From assembly GCF_009766065.1 (NCBI RefSeq), contig NZ_LMUE01000009.1:66812-130811 (forward strand): a stretch of DNA of 64,000 bases, in the 5' to 3' direction. The notes below the pieces were generated by a model. It was not told the DNA's origin and did no database searches. It was given only the letters and a program-made list of their open reading frames with translations. The stretch comes from Dyella sp. S184. Its GTDB lineage: Bacteria > Pseudomonadota > Gammaproteobacteria > Xanthomonadales > Rhodanobacteraceae. Of the stretch, positions 13,886-21,399 are shown piece after piece. The position numbers were made by a program, and so were the translations under genes. The stretch's first letter is position 1; each line of letters begins with the position of its first letter.

Positions 13886-14497
13886 ATGAAGCTTTACTAC
13901 ATGCCCGGCGTCTGTTCGCTGGCCGACCACATCGTGCTGGAATGGATCGGCGAGCCTTACCAGATCAAGGAAGTGCCACGCACCGAGTTGCGTTCACCGG
14001 AATACCTGAAACTCAATCCCGATGGAGTGGTGCCCGTGCTGGTCGATGACGATGGCTGGGTACTGACCGAGAATATCGCGATCCTCAATTACCTTGCCGA
14101 TCGCTTCCCTGCGGCAGGGCTCGGCGGCGACGGTTCACCGCGTGGTCGCGCCGAGGTCAATCGCTGGCTCGGCTTCCTCAACTCCGACGTGCACCCGGCG
14201 TTCAAACCGCTGTTCCGACCGGAGCGCTTCATTGCCGATACGGCCCAGCACGCCGAGTTGCAAGACACGGCACGGTCGAAGTTGCGCAACTATTTCGAAC
14301 GACTGAATGCACAGCTGGCAAACCAGGACTGGCTGGTCGGTACACGTTCGATCGCCGATCCCTATCTGTTCGTGGTGCACCGCTGGGCCAGGGCGAAGGC
14401 AGTCGACCTGCACGGTCTCGATCACCTCGAGCGCTTTGTCCATCGCATGCATGCCGATACCGGCGTCAGGGCCGCCATGCAGGCCGAAGGGCTATAG
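13886..14497 (+). CDS. glutathione S-transferase family protein
   Basis: A 203-residue GST. The thioredoxin-fold N-terminal domain (MKLYYMPGVCSLADHIVLEWIGEPYQIKEV, then LKLNPDGVVPVLVDDDGWVLTENIAILNYLAD with the cis-Pro and Glu-Asn glutathione-binding residues) is followed by an all-helical domain. The CSLA motif near residue 10 is typical of bacterial beta-class GSTs that use Cys. An ATG 21 bp upstream is possible, but the methionine at 13886 begins the conserved strand. Substrate unknown; detoxification or oxidative-stress defence is the family role. Confidence 0.9.
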   Translation: MKLYYMPGVCSLADHIVLEWIGEPYQIKEVPRTELRSPEYLKLNPDGVVPVLVDDDGWVLTENIAILNYLADRFPAAGLGGDGSPRGRAEVNRWLGFLNSDVHPAFKPLFRPERFIADTAQHAELQDTARSKLRNYFERLNAQLANQDWLVGTRSIADPYLFVVHRWARAKAVDLHGLDHLERFVHRMHADTGVRAAMQAEGL

Positions 14498-14553
14498 GCC
14501 AAGGTGGGCAACCTTCGCGGCAAGCCAGTCGCATGCCCCGTCTGGCCGGCTCA

Positions 14554-15960
14554 TCAGTACAGCGTCGGCACCCGCACCGTCACGAGCACATCGGGCGTAT
14601 CGCGGGTGACGCCGGCACCGAGTGTGAAATTGATCGTCCGCTTGGGATTCAAACGATAGGAACCGCCGATCAGCAGTTGGCCCAGCCAGACCTTGGTCGA
14701 ACCGGGTACGGTTTGGCCCATCTCTTTGGTGACGCCAATAAAACTCTGGTCATAGCCGATGCTCAGCGAGGCCTTGTCGTTCAGGGCAAAGCCCATGCCA
14801 ATGCTCACATCGGCGACATTGCCGATACTCACATTGCCGAGGTACTGCTTGCCCAACACCAGGTTTTCCCATACCCCGTGTCGTTCGACGTTGTACAGGT
14901 AGCTGATGTTGCCGAAGAACACCACCGGATCGGAAGGAAGCAGCCAGGTCAAACCTGGTTGCAAGGAGTAGAAACCGGAGCCGGTAGGCAATTCCAGTGG
15001 AAGACCCGTGCCGGTGACGTCTTCCACACAACGCTGCTGACAGTCGGTTGTCACCTGGAAAGGATCGGTTCCCGTGCGTGATTTGAAACGGAACCAACCG
15101 ACGTAGTACGGCTTGTCCGCACCGCCGTCATTGAACTGGTAGCGCGCGGTCGCCTCGATGTCGCCGAGGCCGCTGCCGCTGGAACTCAATACATTGTTCG
15201 TGGCCGCACCGGTGAAGACCTCGCGGCTGACGATGTTGCTCCCGTCCCATACATAAGGCACGCGCACCTCGACCTCAAGGCGATTGGTGATTCCGTAGCG
15301 CGCGGTAAGCGTGGTGGTCTGGGTGGTGGTCCGCACCGTGCGGATATCGATCAGACCGATCAGGATGGCAGGAATGATGGTGTAGCCGATCAGGTCGACC
15401 TGATCGGCGGAGGAGTAGCCGAACTGATACGACGGCTCGATCACGATGTGGCCCTTGGGGGTCAGTACGCCCGGCTGATTGGTGATCGGTGCGACCTCGG
15501 GGGGACGGGTATCCGTCGGCGGCGCTACCCCGACCGGCGGTGAATTCGTGGCACTGACTTGCTGCGTGGCATCGGCATCCGGCATCGGCAGTGTCGATGC
15601 ACTGGCGCTGCCGGTATTCAGATTGCCGCCACGCTCCTGGGCGAGTACATCCATCCCCACCGCATGGCGCAAGCTCTTGTAGTCGGCTTCCTGCTGGGCG
15701 AGCTGCTTCCGCATCGCGTCGAGTTGTGCCACCTGCGCATCAATCTGACTGCGCATCGCATCGATCCGCGCGTCCTGCGCCTGCAGTTGCTTGCGGATCA
15801 GCGTAGAAGACGCCGCAGAAGGTGTTGTAGAAGATGCCGTGCCATCGGACCCCGACGACGGCGCTGGCGTGGGTTCCTCCTGCGCACCCGCCCAACCGCC
15901 GAACATGATCAACCCAGCACAGCCCGCCGAGTACATCCACCGCCAGCGTTTGCGCTCCAC
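14554..15960 (-). CDS. FapF-like outer-membrane beta-barrel protein with N-terminal coiled coil
   Basis: 468 residues from a GTG start at 15960, chosen because AAGGGGA lies six bases in front and the resulting N-terminus (VERKRWRW then MYSAGCAGLIMFGGWAGAQ) makes a good signal peptide. An upstream frame extension to 16050 would overlap the previous gene. Residues ~54-98 form a heptad-like coiled coil (IRKQLQAQDARIDAMRSQID). A Pro/Thr-rich linker and a ~300-residue region of amphipathic strands follow, ending in the aromatic residue Tyr expected of BAM substrates. This order (signal, coiled coil, linker, barrel) is that of FapF, the Fap amyloid exporter. The barrel also resembles MetA-pathway 'transporter' proteins. 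Last gene of the locus; export role is inferred. Confidence 0.7.
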   Translation of the reverse strand: MERKRWRWMYSAGCAGLIMFGGWAGAQEEPTPAPSSGSDGTASSTTPSAASSTLIRKQLQAQDARIDAMRSQIDAQVAQLDAMRKQLAQQEADYKSLRHAVGMDVLAQERGGNLNTGSASASTLPMPDADATQQVSATNSPPVGVAPPTDTRPPEVAPITNQPGVLTPKGHIVIEPSYQFGYSSADQVDLIGYTIIPAILIGLIDIRTVRTTTQTTTLTARYGITNRLEVEVRVPYVWDGSNIVSREVFTGAATNNVLSSSGSGLGDIEATARYQFNDGGADKPYYVGWFRFKSRTGTDPFQVTTDCQQRCVEDVTGTGLPLELPTGSGFYSLQPGLTWLLPSDPVVFFGNISYLYNVERHGVWENLVLGKQYLGNVSIGNVADVSIGMGFALNDKASLSIGYDQSFIGVTKEMGQTVPGSTKVWLGQLLIGGSYRLNPKRTINFTLGAGVTRDTPDVLVTVRVPTLY

Positions 15961-16039
15961 TACAGTTCCCCTTGCCAAACCGAGGTGAATGAAATCTTTG
16001 GCGCTGACATGGCCCGCGCAGGCAACGGCACAGGCATGC

Positions 16040-16651
16040 TCAATGCCCAAGCGACAGCGATAGTTGTTGTGCTGCCTGCAAGGTGCTCTGCAGGTTCAGC
16101 TCATGGAGTACTTCCAGCGTGTTCACCGAAATGTTGAGTGTGGTGAGGGTGCTGATGGACTGGTTATTCAACGAGTTCTGGATGACCGTCGCCAAGCCGG
16201 CGTTCTGGATCGGTGAAGATGAAGCGGTGGGGTTGCCCGGCCCGTTCTGCACGAAGTTCACGGTGCTGAGCACCGATGCCAATGCGGTCGCTTGCTGGGC
16301 GGTGATTTGCCCGATATTCGGGATATTGATGCTGGTGGACGTCACCAGATTGCCGTTGATGTACGCCAATTCCTGGATGCCGAGCGATGCCACCAGGCCA
16401 TCGCCGAAGTCAAAGCCACCACGCACTTCATCAAGCCTGGCATAACTGACCGGCTGCCCCAGGCCGGCGATGTCCGGCTGCGCATGGGCGACAGCCACAC
16501 TCCCATCTGCCGCTACGCCGGCTGGAAGCGACAAGGCCTGTCCCCCCGCCTCACTCGCTCCCTCTCCAGGCACGGCATGCACGACACCGGCACTCCCGAG
16601 CAGGCAGAGTGGCAGGACAATACGGAAACCACTTATCAATTTGTTTTGCAT
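16040..16651 (-). CDS. secreted protein with internal double-glycine motif, candidate C39 substrate
   Basis: 203 residues. A Sec signal peptide (cut near VVHA, residue 26) is followed by a leader-like stretch to ARLDEVRGG at residues 71-79, where Leu73, Val76 and Gly78-Gly79 match the L-x2-[VI]-x-G-G cleavage motif of C39 peptidases. The ~124-residue part after GG has FDFGDGLVASLGIQELAYING, then GLATVIQNSLNNQSI and a tail of NISVNTLEVLHELNLQSTLQ ending LSLSLGH. The ATVIQN block recurs in the two other small secreted proteins of the locus. It starts 9 bp after the peptidase stop, so co-translation is likely. No named family is recognised; a fibre subunit or nucleator is a guess from context. 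Confidence 0.72.
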   Translation of the reverse strand: MQNKLISGFRIVLPLCLLGSAGVVHAVPGEGASEAGGQALSLPAGVAADGSVAVAHAQPDIAGLGQPVSYARLDEVRGGFDFGDGLVASLGIQELAYINGNLVTSTSINIPNIGQITAQQATALASVLSTVNFVQNGPGNPTASSSPIQNAGLATVIQNSLNNQSISTLTTLNISVNTLEVLHELNLQSTLQAAQQLSLSLGH

Positions 16652-16660
16652 TTCATCATC

Positions 16661-17350
16661 TCAATACTGCCCAGGCCCGAACTTCGGCATGGTGAGGTAG
16701 TCCATCAAGCGTCGGTCAACACCTGCGCTCATTGGCGCGAACGGTGCCGCACGCCAGTCACTCACCGTGTTGAAGCGCGCGAGATCGCGCCGGTCGTGGA
16801 TCACGAACAGCAATTTATCCTTCCACAGCTTGTCGAAGCGGTCACGCGGGATCGAACGCGTGCCCAGGGCGGGATCGCCGATCAGCACGCGGCCGTAGAG
16901 CAAGCCCTTGATCACCACGAAATGGTGGTAGCCCTTGTCTTCGATCAGCGCGATCGCTGGCAGGTGCTCCTGTGCGAGCTTCTCCAGCGGGACGCGGAAT
17001 CCGTCGGCCTCGAATCCATTGGCCTGCAGAAACTGCTTGATATCCAGCAGCGAGAATCCTTCCTTGTTGATCTTCGCGCGGTTGCCGTGCGCATACATCT
17101 GCGCGAACGCCGTCTGCTCGCTGAGCGGATAGCCGTATTGGTAGGTCAGCAAGGTGGCCACCGCCGCCGAGCCGCAGCTGAAGTCGTATTTCTGCCGGAT
17201 GGTGTTCCTGAATTTGGCTTCTTTCAGGGTAGTAAGGTGCAAGCTGTAGTTCTGCCCTACCCCATTGTTGATCACTACCGTGGCGGCCAGCAGGCCGCCG
17301 GGGGATGCCAACGCAAACATGATCGCAAGCGATGGCAGCAGTTTTTTCAT
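16661..17350 (-). CDS. periplasmic C39-family cysteine peptidase (FapD-like)
   Basis: 229 residues with a signal peptide (MKKLLPSLAIMFALASPGGLLAA). It is a stand-alone C39 peptidase with no ABC transporter domain. The catalytic residues are visible: Gln53 and Cys59 in IRQKYDFSCGSAAVATLL, His143 in KGYHHFVVIKG and Asp159 in LIGDPALG. C39 enzymes cut after Gly-Gly; here both neighbouring secreted proteins carry such a site. FapD of the Pseudomonas Fap system is the closest functional model. The start ATG overlaps the stop of the gene in front (ATGA), and the next gene begins 9 bp after its own stop: a tight operon. Confidence 0.85.
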   Translation of the reverse strand: MKKLLPSLAIMFALASPGGLLAATVVINNGVGQNYSLHLTTLKEAKFRNTIRQKYDFSCGSAAVATLLTYQYGYPLSEQTAFAQMYAHGNRAKINKEGFSLLDIKQFLQANGFEADGFRVPLEKLAQEHLPAIALIEDKGYHHFVVIKGLLYGRVLIGDPALGTRSIPRDRFDKLWKDKLLFVIHDRRDLARFNTVSDWRAAPFAPMSAGVDRRLMDYLTMPKFGPGQY

Positions 17351-17760
17351 TGCTTGAACTGCACGTTGACGATCACGCCGTTCTGGATCAGCACGTTGTT
17401 GCCGGTATTCTGGATGACCGTCGACAACCCCGCCGCGCCACTGAAAGAATCCGCGCTGATCGCATTCGCGCCGGTCACCACCTGCGTCGCACTGTTGCCT
17501 GTCACTGCACCGGTGATGTTCTGGTTGTTATGGATGTTCGTGCCGCCGCTGTATTGACCCAGGGTATCGGCGCTCACTGCCAGCCCCAAGCCATCGACAT
17601 ACATCGGATGTGCAGGGGCAGTAACAGCCACCTGCTGTTGCTGACCAACCACATGCTGCGTGGCGCTGGCGCTCCCGGGTGGGTTCGAAGCAACCGCCCA
17701 CGCGGGCACCCCAGCGAAGCACAGCACCATCACCCTCATCACGGGCCTCATGAAGGACAT
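17347..17760 (-). CDS. small secreted Asn/Gln/Thr-rich protein with double-glycine motif
   Basis: 137 residues, starting 8 bp after a GGAGAGG ribosome site. A signal peptide (to about AWAVA, residue 24) and a Gln/Val-rich leader lead to ADTLGQYSGG at residues 64-73 (Leu67, Tyr70, Gly72-Gly73), which fits L-x2-Y-x-G-G. The remaining 64 residues are rich in Asn, Gln, Thr, Val and Gly (TNIHNNQNITGAVTGNSATQ) and end GLSTVIQNTGNNVLIQNGVI then VNVQFKQ, an amyloid-like composition. It is translationally coupled to the C39 peptidase gene by an ATGA overlap. No named family recognised. An exported structural subunit is the favoured guess. Confidence 0.72.
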   Translation of the reverse strand: MSFMRPVMRVMVLCFAGVPAWAVASNPPGSASATQHVVGQQQQVAVTAPAHPMYVDGLGLAVSADTLGQYSGGTNIHNNQNITGAVTGNSATQVVTGANAISADSFSGAAGLSTVIQNTGNNVLIQNGVIVNVQFKQ

Positions 17761-17798
17761 GACACCTCTCCGATTGCGTTTGGCGCATCAAAAACGAC

Positions 17799-17839
17799 TG
17801 CGTATCGACCGGTCGCGTACAGTGGCCGGTCGATACGCA
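17799..17839 (-). promoter_or_regulatory. perfect 14-bp inverted repeat between the Gly-rich gene and the operon behind it
   Basis: Arms TGCGTATCGACCGG (17799-17812) and its exact complement (17826-17839), 13-base loop. On the minus strand a TTTTT run begins four bases past the hairpin. It lies 51 bp after the stop of the Gly-rich gene and 38 bp before the next start, so it may act as a partial terminator or as an RNA-processing/stability hairpin that sets different levels for the two sides. Confidence 0.65.
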
Positions 17840-17890
17840 CAGCAAAGTGGGGCGATGCGTGCTCCACCCTGCTGATCAGCCGTCACTCAC

Positions 17891-18841
17891 TCAATGGCCA
17901 CCCAGAGTCAGATTGGCTTGGACAGTCACGCCCTGCTGGATAAGAGCAGCTGCGCCACTGTTCTGGGCAATCGTCGTGATGCCTGCGGCCGCGGCCGCCG
18001 TGCTGTCCATGGTGTTGGACATGTCGAAGCTGCCAGCATCGGCTGCCGCGGTTCCGCCGTTACCGCCGTTACCGCCAGAAGCACCGGTTCCCGCACCGCC
18101 CATGCCTGCGCCTCCGGCCCCGCCAGCACCACCAGCACCACCTTCGCTGGCGACTTCACCGCTGGTACCGCCCGTCGCAGAGGAATTGCCGCTGGTAGCG
18201 CTCGCGCTTCCAGCCGTATTGCTGCCGCCCGTGCTGCTACCACCGGCACCGCCCGTAGCTCCACCCGTACCAGCATGATGGCTGGCATTGGCCCAGGCAT
18301 CACCACCGTCGCTACCGTAGGCACCCGCGCCCGCCGCAACACTGGCTGCGCCAGCATCGCCGCTGCTGGCACCCGACCCGCCGGCACGACCGCTCTTGGC
18401 GAACGCGTCACCGCCGCTACCGCCGCTGCCGCCCTTGCCACCAGGGCCATTGCCGCCGTTGCCGCTACCGCCCCTGCCGCCACGTGCTCCATTCGCGTTG
18501 CCGTTATTCACGGCGCTGTTGCCAATGCCCCACACCGAGACATCGCTGACCGAACCTTCGAGATCGCTATTGGCTACTGCGACGGTCTTGTTGAATGAAT
18601 CGCTGACTGTGGCGTTGGCGGTCGCACCGTTGTCGGCCGCGGCGGTTCCCAAGCCGGAGCTCTGCACATCGCTCAGGCTTACATTCTTGGTAACGGTCTT
18701 GGTATTCGTACTCGAGTTGGTATGCGTACTCGAATTCGTGTTGCCCTGATTCGAATTGTTGTTGTGGTTGTTGTCGGCCATGGCCGGGAGAGCAAGTCCC
18801 AAACCAAGCATCAGTGCCGTGAAAAGAAGAGTCTTGCGCAT
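17891..18841 (-). CDS. secreted glycine/asparagine-rich low-complexity protein
   Basis: 316 residues. The signal peptide MRKTLLFTALMLGLGLALPA ends at AMA/DNN. Residues 23-50 are Asn/Ser/Thr/His-rich. A more ordered segment (VSLSDVQSSGLGTAAADNGA to VSVWGIGNSAVNNG) follows. Residues ~115-275 are a Gly/Ala/Ser domain with GGSGG, GGDA[FW]A and GGAGGAGG units. The C-terminus is ITTIAQNSGAAALIQQGV, aligned with the C-termini of the two proteins downstream. No double-glycine leader motif of the L-x2-V-x-G-G type is seen. Composition and context suggest the major extracellular fibre or matrix component; a structural adhesin is the alternative. GGAG ribosome site upstream; first gene of the locus. Confidence 0.75.
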   Translation of the reverse strand: MRKTLLFTALMLGLGLALPAMADNNHNNNSNQGNTNSSTHTNSSTNTKTVTKNVSLSDVQSSGLGTAAADNGATANATVSDSFNKTVAVANSDLEGSVSDVSVWGIGNSAVNNGNANGARGGRGGSGNGGNGPGGKGGSGGSGGDAFAKSGRAGGSGASSGDAGAASVAAGAGAYGSDGGDAWANASHHAGTGGATGGAGGSSTGGSNTAGSASATSGNSSATGGTSGEVASEGGAGGAGGAGGAGMGGAGTGASGGNGGNGGTAAADAGSFDMSNTMDSTAAAAAGITTIAQNSGAAALIQQGVTVQANLTLGGH

Positions 18842-19237
18842 AAGGAGATTCCTCCCGGACTACCGCGATGACCCCCTGCTTTGCTTTGCATGTACATCTT
18901 TGGCCTTGCATGTACAGCAGCTACGCCCCGCAAACTGCGTGCCATCAGGGGCGCGCTTATGATTTCACGCACGATTTCTGCAACATCAAGCACTTAGCTT
19001 CATTCTTGTCCGGCAAATTTCGACAGGATCAAGCGCATCGGCGAGCAAGGTGAAGCATTCGTGTTACATCCTTTTTTCGTCAAACTCCTCTCATACGACA
19101 TGTCGTTCAAAAACATTTCTCCAAAGATCATGGGCTTAAATTAAAAATCTACAATTATTCTGAGGTTGTATCACTCGTGTTACATCAATCACCAATGCGT
19201 CGCACTAGCGACCGTAGCCCATCGCCATTAACCCAAC
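18842..19237. other. promoter region of the Fap-like locus, AT-rich with direct repeats
   Basis: About 400 bp with no gene. Near the Gly-rich gene there are two copies of TTGCATGTACA (18886-18896 and 18906-18916), exactly 20 bp apart. Further up, TCGTGTTACATC occurs twice (19059-19070 and 19175-19186), flanking the most AT-rich stretch of the neighbourhood (about 19065-19175). These are candidate operator sites for the locus read on the minus strand. No core promoter could be fixed with confidence. Confidence 0.5.
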
Positions 19238-19271
19238 AAAAAGAAAGGGGCCTTGCGGCCCCTTTCTTTTT
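19238..19271 (-). terminator. rho-independent terminator of prpBC
   Basis: A 15-bp perfect stem (19238-19252 with 19257-19271, TTGC loop) with A and T runs on the two sides. It lies 19 bp behind the prpC stop and separates prpBC from the secretion locus. Confidence 0.9.
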
Positions 19272-19290
19272 GATTGTCGCTCCCTTCGGA

Positions 19291-20436
19291 TCAGCGCTTG
19301 TCGATCGGCACGTAGGCCTGGTCTTCCGGACCGGTGTAGTTCGCGCTGGGACGAATGATCTTGCCGTCCTCGCGCTGCTCGATCACATGCGCGCTCCAAC
19401 CGGAGGTGCGCGCAATCACGAACAACGGCGTGAACATCGCGGTCGGCACGCCCATCATGTGGTATGCGCTGGCCGAGAACCAGTCGAGGTTGGGAAACAT
19501 CTTCTTGACGTCGCCCATCACCTTCTCGATGCGTTCGGATACCTCGAACAGGGTCGGGTTGCCGCCGTCGGTGCACAGCTTGCGCGAGATCTCCTTGATG
19601 ATCTCGTTGCGCGGATCGGACACCGTGTACACCGGGTGGCCGAAGCCGATGATGATTTCCTTGCGCTCGACGCGTGCGCGGATATCGGCCTCCGCATCAT
19701 TGGCACTGCGGTAGCGCGCGATGATTTCCATCGCCACTTCGTTCGCACCACCATGCTTCGGGCCACGCAACGCACCGATCGCACCGGTCAACGCCGAGTA
19801 CATGTCCGAACCGGTACCGGCAATCACGCGCGCGGCGAACGTCGAGGCATTGAACTCGTGCTCGGCATACAGCACCAGCGACTTGTCCAGCGCATGAGCA
19901 TGCAGGTCGCTCGGCTTCTTGCCGTGCAGAAGGTGCAGGAAGTGCGCCGCGATCGAGTCGTCATCGGTCTGTGTCTCGATGCGCTTGCCGTTGTGGCTGA
20001 AGTGGTACCAATACAGCAGCATCGAGCCGAAGCTGGCCATCAGGCGGTCGGCGATCTCGCGCGCACCGGTGACGTTGTGGTCGTCCTTTTCCGGCAGCAC
20101 GGTGCCGAGTACCGAGCAGCCCGTGCGCATCACGTCCATTGGATGGGTAGCAGCCGGCAGCAGCTCCAGCGCAGCTTTCACCGGCGCGGGCAAGCCGCGC
20201 AGGCGCTTCAGGCGCGCGCGGTAGTTGTTCAGCTCGGTCCAGTTCGGCAGCACGCCGTGCACCAGCAGGTACGCCACCTCCTCGAAGCAGCCCTTGGCCG
20301 CCAGATCGTGGATGTCGTAGCCACGGTAATGCAGGTCATTGCCGCTACGACCGACCGTGCACAGCGCGGTATTGCCCGCCGCCACACCGGACAGCGCGAC
20401 AGATTTCTTGGCCTTGGGCAGGGTTTGCTCGCTCAT
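19291..20436 (-). CDS. prpC: 2-methylcitrate synthase
   Basis: A 381-residue citrate-synthase family protein that condenses propionyl-CoA with oxaloacetate. The start at 20436 ([20 protein letters not shown]) is preferred to the frame start at 20490 because CAGGAGAG lies just in front. Motifs include [40 protein letters not shown] and [16 protein letters not shown]. Catalytic residues are His in EHEFNASTF and His/Asp in the substrate lid ([32 protein letters not shown]). The GVAAGNTA opening is typical of PrpC rather than GltA. It follows prpB by 72 bp. Confidence 0.95.
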
Positions 20437-20508
20437 CGATAACTCTCCTGAGACTTGCTGATACATGGCGATGCGATGGGCATCGCGCATACGAAAAGAA
20501 TGGCGCGT

Positions 20509-21399
20509 TCAGGCCTTCTTGCTGGCGAACAGCGCGTCGAGCCTGTTCTCGAAATCGTGATAGCCGATGCGCTCGTAAAGCTCCTCGCGCGTCTGCATGG
20601 TGTCGATCACATTGCGCTGGTGGCCATCGCGGCGAATCGCCGTGTAGACGTTCTCGGCTGCCTTGTTCATCGCGCGGAAAGCCGACAACGGATACAGCAC
20701 GATGCCAACGCCGGCCGTGCGCAATTCGTCCACGCTGAAGAGTGGCGTGCTGCCGAACTCGGTGATGTTCGCCAGCACCGGCACCCTCACGGCGTCGACG
20801 AAGCGGCGATAGGTCGGCAGGTCGTAGGCGGCCTCGGCGAAGATGCCGTCAGCACCCGCCTCGACGCAGGCGACCGCGCGCTCGATCGCGGCATCCACAC
20901 CATCGACGGCAATCGCGTCGGTCCGTGCAATCAGGAAGAAATCCGGGTCGGTCCTCGCGTCTGCTGCAGCCTTCACGCGGTCAGCCATTTCATCGGCGGA
21001 TACGATCTCCTTGCCTGGCCGGTGCCCACAGCGCTTGGCGCCGACCTGATCCTCGATGTGGCACGCGGCTGCACCGAACTTGATCAGGCTCTTCACCGTG
21101 CGGGCGATATTGAATGCGCTGGGGCCGAAGCCGGTATCGATATCCACCATCAACGGCAGGTCACAGACGTCGGTGATGCGGCGCACATCGGTGAGCACGT
21201 CATCCAGCGTATTGATGCCCAGATCCGGCAAACCCAGTGAACCGGCCGCCACGCCACCGCCGGAAAGGTAAATCGCACGATAACCGGCGCGCTTGGCGAG
21301 CAGCGCATGGTTCGCGTTGATCGCGCCGATCACCTGCAGCGGCTGTTCCTCCACCAAGGCAGCGCGAAAACGCGCTCCAGGAGATGCGATCTTCGTCAT
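20509..21399 (-). CDS. prpB: 2-methylisocitrate lyase
   Basis: A 296-residue isocitrate-lyase/PEP-mutase family protein that splits 2-methylisocitrate to pyruvate and succinate. Visible are [38 protein letters not shown], the Mg2+-binding [18 protein letters not shown] and the active-site loop [15 protein letters not shown] with the catalytic Cys. The start at 21399 is chosen for its GGAG site; an ATG at 21420 adds seven residues, and the long frame to 21633 is not credible. It lies downstream of mdh on the same strand and 72 bp before prpC. Confidence 0.95.

Follow-up and report, generated by a model that had tools for sequence, protein, structure and literature searches.

A five-gene Dyella locus related to the Fap system, with candidate double-glycine sites for its C39 peptidase

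A stretch of 64,000 nucleotides (nt) from contig NZ_LMUE01000009.1 of Dyella sp. S184 (hereafter the window; all positions refer to this whole stretch unless a locus is named) carries on its minus strand a five-gene secretion locus that profiles and trees place in a sister clade of Fap, apart from the canonical system. We consider it probable that this clade builds an extracellular protein fibre or matrix and that its own protease matures two of the products, E and B. Both carry predicted double-glycine sites for a C39 peptidase, and the site in E, when FapE is lined up with it, indicates one specific bond in FapE as a candidate target of FapD. The transcription order taken from the open reading frame (ORF) listing is C-B-D-E-F, running from 18841 to 14554, and all five same-strand genes that an earlier note, made from the letters alone, had placed there were found:

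17891..18841, minus strand: gene C, Gly/Asn-rich Sec-exported protein of 316 amino acids (aa), proposed major subunit, with a near-invariant C-terminal module and a very variable middle (family in 78 of 80 loci)
17347..17760, minus strand: gene B, small Sec-exported, Asn-rich protein of 137 aa, mature part 64 aa (in 80 of 80 loci)
16661..17350, minus strand: gene D, periplasmic C39 cysteine peptidase of 229 aa, FapD homologue by family matches, alignment and tree
16040..16651, minus strand: gene E, Sec-exported protein of 203 aa, paralogous to B and probably a diverged FapE relative (in 80 of 80 loci)
14554..15960, minus strand: gene F, outer-membrane barrel with an N-terminal helix, 468 aa, FapF homologue by family, Protein Data Bank (PDB) sequence and fold matches

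Kinship of D and F with FapD and FapF

The compositions agree with the Gly/Asn-rich and Asn/Gln-rich secreted proteins described in the earlier note: C is 24% Gly and 9% Asn, and mature B is Asn-rich, with an Asn/Gln repeat common to B and C. The full Gln-Cys-His-Asp set claimed for the C39 peptidase was also recovered, as Q53, C59, H143 and D159 are all invariant in an 8-row alignment. By sequence comparison, D is homologous to FapD and F to FapF. In the hidden Markov model searches against Fap families that the note had suggested, D matched the NCBIfam FapD model (E 3.1e-36; 124.7 bits, below the cut-off of 330) and F the FapF model (E 1.4e-42; 146 bits, below the cut-off of 700); the canonical copies in the same genome score 236.3 and 375, respectively. 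D additionally matches Pfam Peptidase_C39 (E 9.5e-22), and F matches FapF among PDB sequences (5o67, E 2.2e-27). Models of the Acinetobacter Fil system also match, FilB to D (E 3.4e-36) and FilC to F (E 9.3e-13).

The AlphaFold model of F (mean predicted local distance difference test score (pLDDT) 71.9, predicted template modelling score 0.57) has an N-terminal helix at residues 51-100, then a low-confidence linker, and a barrel from residue 172, which together with the FapF homology bears out the beta-barrel protein with an N-terminal coiled coil that had been proposed. An ordinary porin unrelated to FapF had been named as the outcome that would speak against the proposal; in the fold search the best 18 PDB matches were all FapF chains (best E 9.0e-21; template modelling score (TM) 0.53 by query length and 0.82 by target length), followed by the COG4313 channel 4rl8 (TM 0.69-0.70 by target).

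Conservation of the block and phylogeny

The survey of gene neighbourhoods found the five genes kept together, where their scattering among relatives was to have counted against the earlier proposal. Public genomes were scanned with a mixed FapD alignment, and the best 80 of at least 568 relatives were analysed as FapD-anchored loci. B, D and E are present in 80/80, C in 78/80 and F in 77/80, and the order C-B-D-E-F is intact and co-directional in 61. F lies downstream and inverted in 7 loci, upstream and inverted in 7, and is absent from the stretch in 3; C is absent from the stretch in 2, both at contig ends. Such conservation across genera is far beyond chance. Most hosts belong to Rhodanobacteraceae, Lysobacteraceae and Burkholderiales; a few are metagenome bins labelled otherwise, one of them as 'Candidatus Eremiobacteraeota'.

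Among 60 genomes scanned with the FapF model, 12 loci (the window included) carry all five families, in one of which, at a contig end, C is partial; the same model found no match in any of 14 control genomes. In a one-contig genome of the same genus (G030), the sole remnant is a 191-residue piece of F near a citrate-synthase-like gene (L045, 9292-9867), which is likely the scar of a lost locus. FapF-type matches occur in 69 of 369 sampled genomes of the class, many of them weak and limited to the coiled coil. A further 25 loci, made up of 20 stretches from stronger FapF-type matches and 5 plasmid stretches, comprise 17 with an E-type protein, 4 canonical loci, 1 cut by a contig end and 3 that have D without a recognised E. 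Among the 17 are loci on two Sphingomonadales plasmids, on a Photobacterium plasmid and on the megaplasmid of Cupriavidus metallidurans CH34, where the locus lies at about 67040-72660 of NC_007974.2.

The assignment to a sister clade comes from trees of D and F built for the same 55 loci and rooted at midpoint only, in both of which the 11 canonical rows fall on one side of a single branch (96/81 for D, 95/99 for F). Of 44 rows labelled sister, 42 form one group (99/98 and 96/96); L185 and L186, the remaining two, are FapD-FapF pairs that sit further away on long branches. In L185 (1274-5517) the pair has as neighbours secreted proteins that contain the motifs LDQMTAG and LDSIYAGG.

A canonical fap operon in the same genome

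The genome of Dyella sp. S184 has two matches to the FapF model, F of the window and a second gene (E 4.2e-112) that sits in a complete fapABCDEF operon (G000:C19; L028, 7950-13085) and coexists with the window system. All six proteins of that operon were named by matching NCBIfam models, each under its curated cut-off, so that the cut-offs alone do not separate the window locus from canonical Fap. Across 36 genomes of the genus, this one included, 11 have window-type F (E 1e-47 to 1e-38) and 4 have canonical F (about 1e-112). The S184 genome is the only one of these 36 with both complete types; outside the genus, G036 has both. G021, which keeps the window-type system, also has, close to a short FapF end, a gene resembling FapA (E 3.1e-32; L047, 7932-8402), apparently the leftover of a canonical fap operon.

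The earlier note had recognised no FapA, FapB, FapC or FapE in the locus. This stood for the models and canonical profiles: B, C and E match no NCBIfam FapB, FapC or FapE model at E<=10, a setting at which the HMMER filters still remove most weak matches, and profiles of canonical FapA, FapB, FapC and FapE found no match in the window locus. The FapA profile matches only 7 canonical loci and the L047 remnant. For E, which these models and profiles left unmatched, a profile-profile comparison points to a FapE relative. The Gly-rich major component was rightly called unlike FapC, as neither the FapC model nor the canonical FapC profile matches C. Instead of about three Fap repeats, C appears to have a single diverged terminal one, and B does not qualify as FapB, being by its profile a paralogue of E that carries a Fap-type repeat. 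Direct kinship of the full-length proteins B and C with canonical FapB and FapC was considered and rejected, since hhalign gave at most 26%, a signal-peptide match; a comparison proved informative only at the level of the repeats.

Double-glycine sites in E, B and F

The predicted sites are as follows:

16415..16450, minus strand: double-glycine C39 site of E, VSYARLDEVRGG/FDFG, predicted cut after Gly79 (90 distinct E and 17 further E)
17542..17577, minus strand: double-glycine C39 site of B, VSADTLGQYSGG/TNIH, predicted cut after Gly73 (90 distinct B)
15625..15660, minus strand: double-glycine-like site of F in the helix/barrel linker, VGMDVLAQERGG/NLNT, after Gly112 (looser form in 58 of 87 distinct F)

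In E and B the site follows the Sec signal. In alignments of E and B proteins from 92 loci (90 distinct sequences each), the leaders are poorly conserved up to an invariant site block. In E this block consists of L-7 (90/90), R-3 (90/90), G-2 (89/90), G-1 (90/90) and F or Y at +1 (88/90), with V, I or L at -12 in 83/90; in B, L-7, G-2 and G-1 are each found in 90/90 and R, S or T at -3 in 89/90. The classical double-glycine leader consensus is LSxxELxxIxGG, and the geometry of E and B is that of such a leader. Several E proteins of the further loci fit it closely (for example LTDHELSSLRGG), and [LM]-x3-RGG is kept in 17/17 E of these loci.

All three sites of the window read L-x3-V-x4-L-x3-[RS]-G-G. 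This tight pattern, which was written after the three sites had been seen, occurs in 0 of 4,864 non-family ORFs (804,340 aa, six frames), and among relatives in only 22/92 B, 4/92 E and 13/97 F. A strict general pattern matches 59/81 E, 64/81 B, 5/78 F, 0/79 C, 0/81 D and 1/490 other ORFs, and L-x3-[RST]-GG matches 80/81 E, 80/81 B, 31/78 F, 4/79 C, 1/81 D and 15/490 other ORFs. A looser site in F (GG, AG or GA, a set chosen after the stricter F counts were seen) is present in 58/87 distinct proteins, compared to 0.039 per 150 residues in control ORFs; a few of these matches look accidental, in that the sole matches of L110 and L124 are oddly placed and the second match of L069 is accidental. 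An NCBIfam scan of two 41-residue leader stretches returned no family.

A candidate FapD target in FapE

Canonical FapE has a comparable site: 17/17 proteins, from 16 non-Pseudomonas genomes, carry [LM] at -7, RG at -3/-2, [RK] at -1 and [FY] at +1. Comparison of E with canonical FapE by hhalign gave 58.6% over 35 columns that cover the site and the residues following it (E 9.5e-5 for one comparison), and the score of 36.7 compares with a permutation maximum of 23.7, 0/100 column permutations being as good. On this profile evidence E is a probable diverged relative of FapE. B and E match each other at 97.4% and are paralogues.

Lining FapE up with E indicates one specific FapE bond. According to Rouse et al. 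(PMC5557850), FapC secretion in Pseudomonas depends on the catalytic Cys of FapD, no peptides were observed from the first ~70 residues of FapE, and a cut in the FapF linker is possible; the same paper, from 2017, calls the FapD target unclear and describes the Fap proteins as lacking canonical C39 sequences. A 2018 review still gives the FapD substrate as undetermined (PMC6173800). The predicted sites in E, B and F agree with both the data on the first ~70 residues of FapE and the suggested FapF-linker cut. The indicated bond follows Arg or Lys, and therefore, we infer, the trypsin digest of 2017 could not distinguish a FapD cut from trypsin itself. The sites of the sister clade name candidate FapD bonds where the target had been unclear.

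Repeats and a hairpin in the putative subunit genes

Three further features concern the putative subunits:

17894..18016, minus strand: C-terminal Fap-type repeat of C, residues 276-316 (matches the end of B and the units of relatives' multi-repeat C proteins; direct canonical match 0.1%)
17350..17466, minus strand: Fap-type repeat that closes B, residues 99-137 (repeat profile comparison)
17798..17842, minus strand: intercistronic messenger RNA hairpin after C, -26.8 kcal/mol

Throughout the clade, C proteins have a constant signal peptide, a very variable middle and a near-invariant end. The middle is Gly-rich in the window and elsewhere consists of SDNSN repeats or several Asn/Gln repeats. 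Repeat profiles, built from part of the available repeats (the regular expression caught 58/90 B and 86/88 C proteins), matched at 96.0% between the end of B and the units of multi-repeat C proteins, 89.0% between the end of C and these units, and 94.2% between the ends of B and C. Against the canonical FapC repeat, the multi-repeat units matched at 66.2% (ungapped, 35 columns), the end of B at 39.8% and the end of C at 0.1%, so low that direct kinship of the C repeat with the Fap repeat was rejected. Permutation tests covered four comparisons (units with Fap, B with Fap, B with units and C with units; the B-C comparison lies outside them), and in each 0/150 column permutations were as good. 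Because B, C and the multi-repeat units match one another and the units match the Fap repeat, B and C probably each carry one diverged Fap-type repeat, in the case of C by way of relatives' multi-repeat proteins.

Some relatives have distinctive C proteins. L180 (4258-5163 and 7658-8644, two genes) and L173 (5593-6504) encode C-type proteins with four Asn/Gln-rich repeats (NTIKDNAFQQAEGITQVQQNNG...), which from their sequences would be attractive amyloid candidates. The C-position proteins of L182 (12536-14422) and L193 (4255-5418) consist mostly of NSDNSNNSDN or DSGNDNSDNS repeats, with the usual type of C-terminal module.

The best 45-nt hairpin after C reaches -24 kcal/mol or lower in 83/88 distinct loci (median -30.2), against 13/88 base-shuffled ones; this threshold was used after one of -15 kcal/mol had proved non-discriminating (89/90 against 152/180 random stretches). 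After the other genes such hairpins are found in 43/90 (B), 37/90 (D), 14/90 (E) and 32/86 (F). The position after C is conserved across genera, and the sequence differs between relatives. The hairpin may serve to keep C in excess over the downstream genes.

Proposed pathway and alternative explanations

The earlier note had offered a distant or a parallel version of Fap. A version of Fap it appears to be, given the homology of F and D and an order equal to fapB/C-D-E-F, and 'distant' fits better than 'parallel' because E looks FapE-related and B and C seem to end in a diverged Fap-type repeat. In the pathway we propose, C, B and E would cross the inner membrane via Sec and then lose the signal peptide. 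D would cut E after RGG (Gly79) and B after SGG (Gly73) in the periplasm, removing an N-terminal propeptide, and would perhaps also clip F after Gly112, at the boundary of coiled coil and barrel. Matured E might then license export through F, as suggested for FapE in Fap. C would be the bulk subunit, as first gene with a hairpin keeping it in excess, and would enter the fibre through its C-terminal Fap-type repeat; B would be a single-repeat mini-subunit that nucleates or caps. The cleavages, the export, the subunit roles and the fibre or amyloid nature are all proposals read from sequence.

Several points weigh against this proposal. The plain pattern L-x4-GG is not rare: it matches 80/81 E, 81/81 B and 32/78 F, and also 38/79 C, 15/81 D and 97/490 other ORFs. 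The B site is relaxed in the further loci, with GG in 3/16 B-position proteins (a count that leaves aside 8 listed proteins of C type). In F, 29/87 distinct proteins have no looser site, and a true GG with L-7 and R/K-3 before the barrel is found in only 32/87. All these site counts are of related sequences and not of independent events. The similarity between E and FapE is weak, the predicted structure of E is poor (pLDDT 61.8), its fold search was uninformative, and the model found no PDB match at E<=0.001. At -1, canonical FapE carries R or K in place of the G or A usual at C39 sites. The likeness of the repeats to the canonical Fap repeat is modest, and the Gly-rich body of C, unlike FapC, might be non-amyloid.

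Some of these points are what would be expected if the GG motif were a docking or export signal read uncut by D or F, with D acting as a chaperone, an explanation we find unlikely. The RG[RK] of canonical FapE and the degenerate site in many B proteins of the further loci are unusual for a C39 substrate, and some C39-like domains are non-catalytic, as PMC5557850 notes. Nevertheless, relatives of D keep the cysteine box in 92/92 proteins, GDP in 91/92 and the strict HFVVxKG in 76/92, and the need for the catalytic Cys of FapD in Pseudomonas secretion (PMC5557850) also argues for a working protease. We think it rather unlikely that the role of D and F is to process and release small bioactive peptides, such as the 64-aa mature B, without any fibre. 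B does have a double-glycine leader and a short mature part, the gonococcal nap island is described in PMC11798529 as combining a C39 peptidase, a FapF homologue and double-glycine peptides, and an Acinetobacter plasmid has a C39 peptidase with short Sec-exported proteins that have LSRQEMKDTQGA in common. Against this, C is large, of low complexity and present in nearly all of the 80 loci, B shares its Asn/Gln repeat with C, and in our reading of the translations no immunity-like gene was recognised in the five-gene block. The small cationic double-glycine peptides of nap are not what is found here: the sites are there, yet mature B is rich in Asn and close to neutral, with one K and one D.

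Simple divergence of an ordinary canonical Fap operon in this host would account for the kinship of D, E and F and for the gene order, and the low scores do not speak against it, since the canonical operon of the same genome also falls under the NCBIfam cut-offs. However, no FapA, FapB, FapC or FapE model or profile matches, the separate D and F branches are common to many genera, and a canonical operon coexists in the same genome, which leaves this explanation very improbable. We retain a fibre- or matrix-building sister clade of Fap as the probable explanation. More broadly, and only tentatively, FapD-FapF pairs may represent one general envelope pathway: passage via Sec, a periplasmic double-glycine-type cut by a stand-alone C39 peptidase (L-7, often R-3, G-2, variable -1) and release via a trimeric coiled-coil barrel, whose linker would in many lineages be cut by the same enzyme. 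Its users would include canonical FapE (RG[RK]), E, B and F of the sister clade (RGG), FilA (TGQ) and the nap peptides.

Gene layout and neighbourhood

B and D overlap by 4 bases, and the gaps are 9 bases between D and E, 79 between E and F and 130 between C and B; because this spacing and overlap are operon-like, we read the five genes as an operon. Sec-like signal sequences were read by eye at the start of all five proteins. F was started at a GTG, which is aligned with the start of most relatives; the upstream TTG at 16050 in the ORF list is less likely. The block is flanked on one side by a TerC-like and glutathione-transferase-like pair and on the other by a citrate-synthase-like gene (names read from translations). 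An Rfam scan of 14000-20600 gave no match at the gathering score, PADLOC gave no match, and promoter and terminator scans did no better than on shuffled sequence.

Comparison with known systems

Neither the pairing nor the notion of double-glycine substrates is new, as fapD-fapF pairs have been reported in five further phyla (PMC6173800) and the nap island has been described (PMC11798529). Searches of open-licence papers turned up no description of the five-gene clade and none that names the FapD-target bond, and as far as these searches show, the clade and the specific site common to E, B, F and FapE are new. The locus adds an apparently undescribed matrix-type system that is common in Rhodanobacteraceae, Lysobacteraceae and Burkholderiales and also occurs on two Sphingomonadales plasmids; some organisms with it carry canonical Fap too.

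The Acinetobacter Fil system (FilA-FilF) resembles the window locus in the matches of the FilB model to D and the FilC model to F, and FilA has MDDAALSAATGQ, with the same L-7/G-2 spacing when compared by eye. It differs in that no window gene looks like FilD, FilE or FilF, for which no profile search was made. The nap island of Neisseria gonorrhoeae (NapP/NapF) was compared by description only; PMC11798529 gives it a C39 peptidase, a FapF homologue and double-glycine substrates, with periplasmic cleavage proposed, and its substrates are small cationic autolysis peptides, whereas the window set is Asn/Gly-rich, with putative Fap-type repeats and a probable FapE relative. Additionally, the plasmid of Acinetobacter sp. 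SAAs474 (L195, 2447-6543) carries a C39 peptidase, a barrel gene with weak likeness to FapF (17 bits) and three short proteins exported by Sec that have LELSRQEMKDTQGA in common, suggesting a peptide-release version of the same pathway.

The closest comparison is with the Fap system of Pseudomonas, which likewise has a FapF-type barrel with an N-terminal helix, a periplasmic C39 peptidase and a FapE-type protein between them, in the order B/C-D-E-F, with secreted subunits that carry Fap-type repeats. The window locus, in contrast, has no FapA match, and its D and F fall in separate tree groups; the FapA chaperone is often deleted in Fap operons, according to PMC3792158. The Gly-rich C has a single terminal repeat, against the three described in that paper for FapC. 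B is a single-repeat protein with a predicted double-glycine site of its own, and the site of E reads RGG where FapE has RG[RK].

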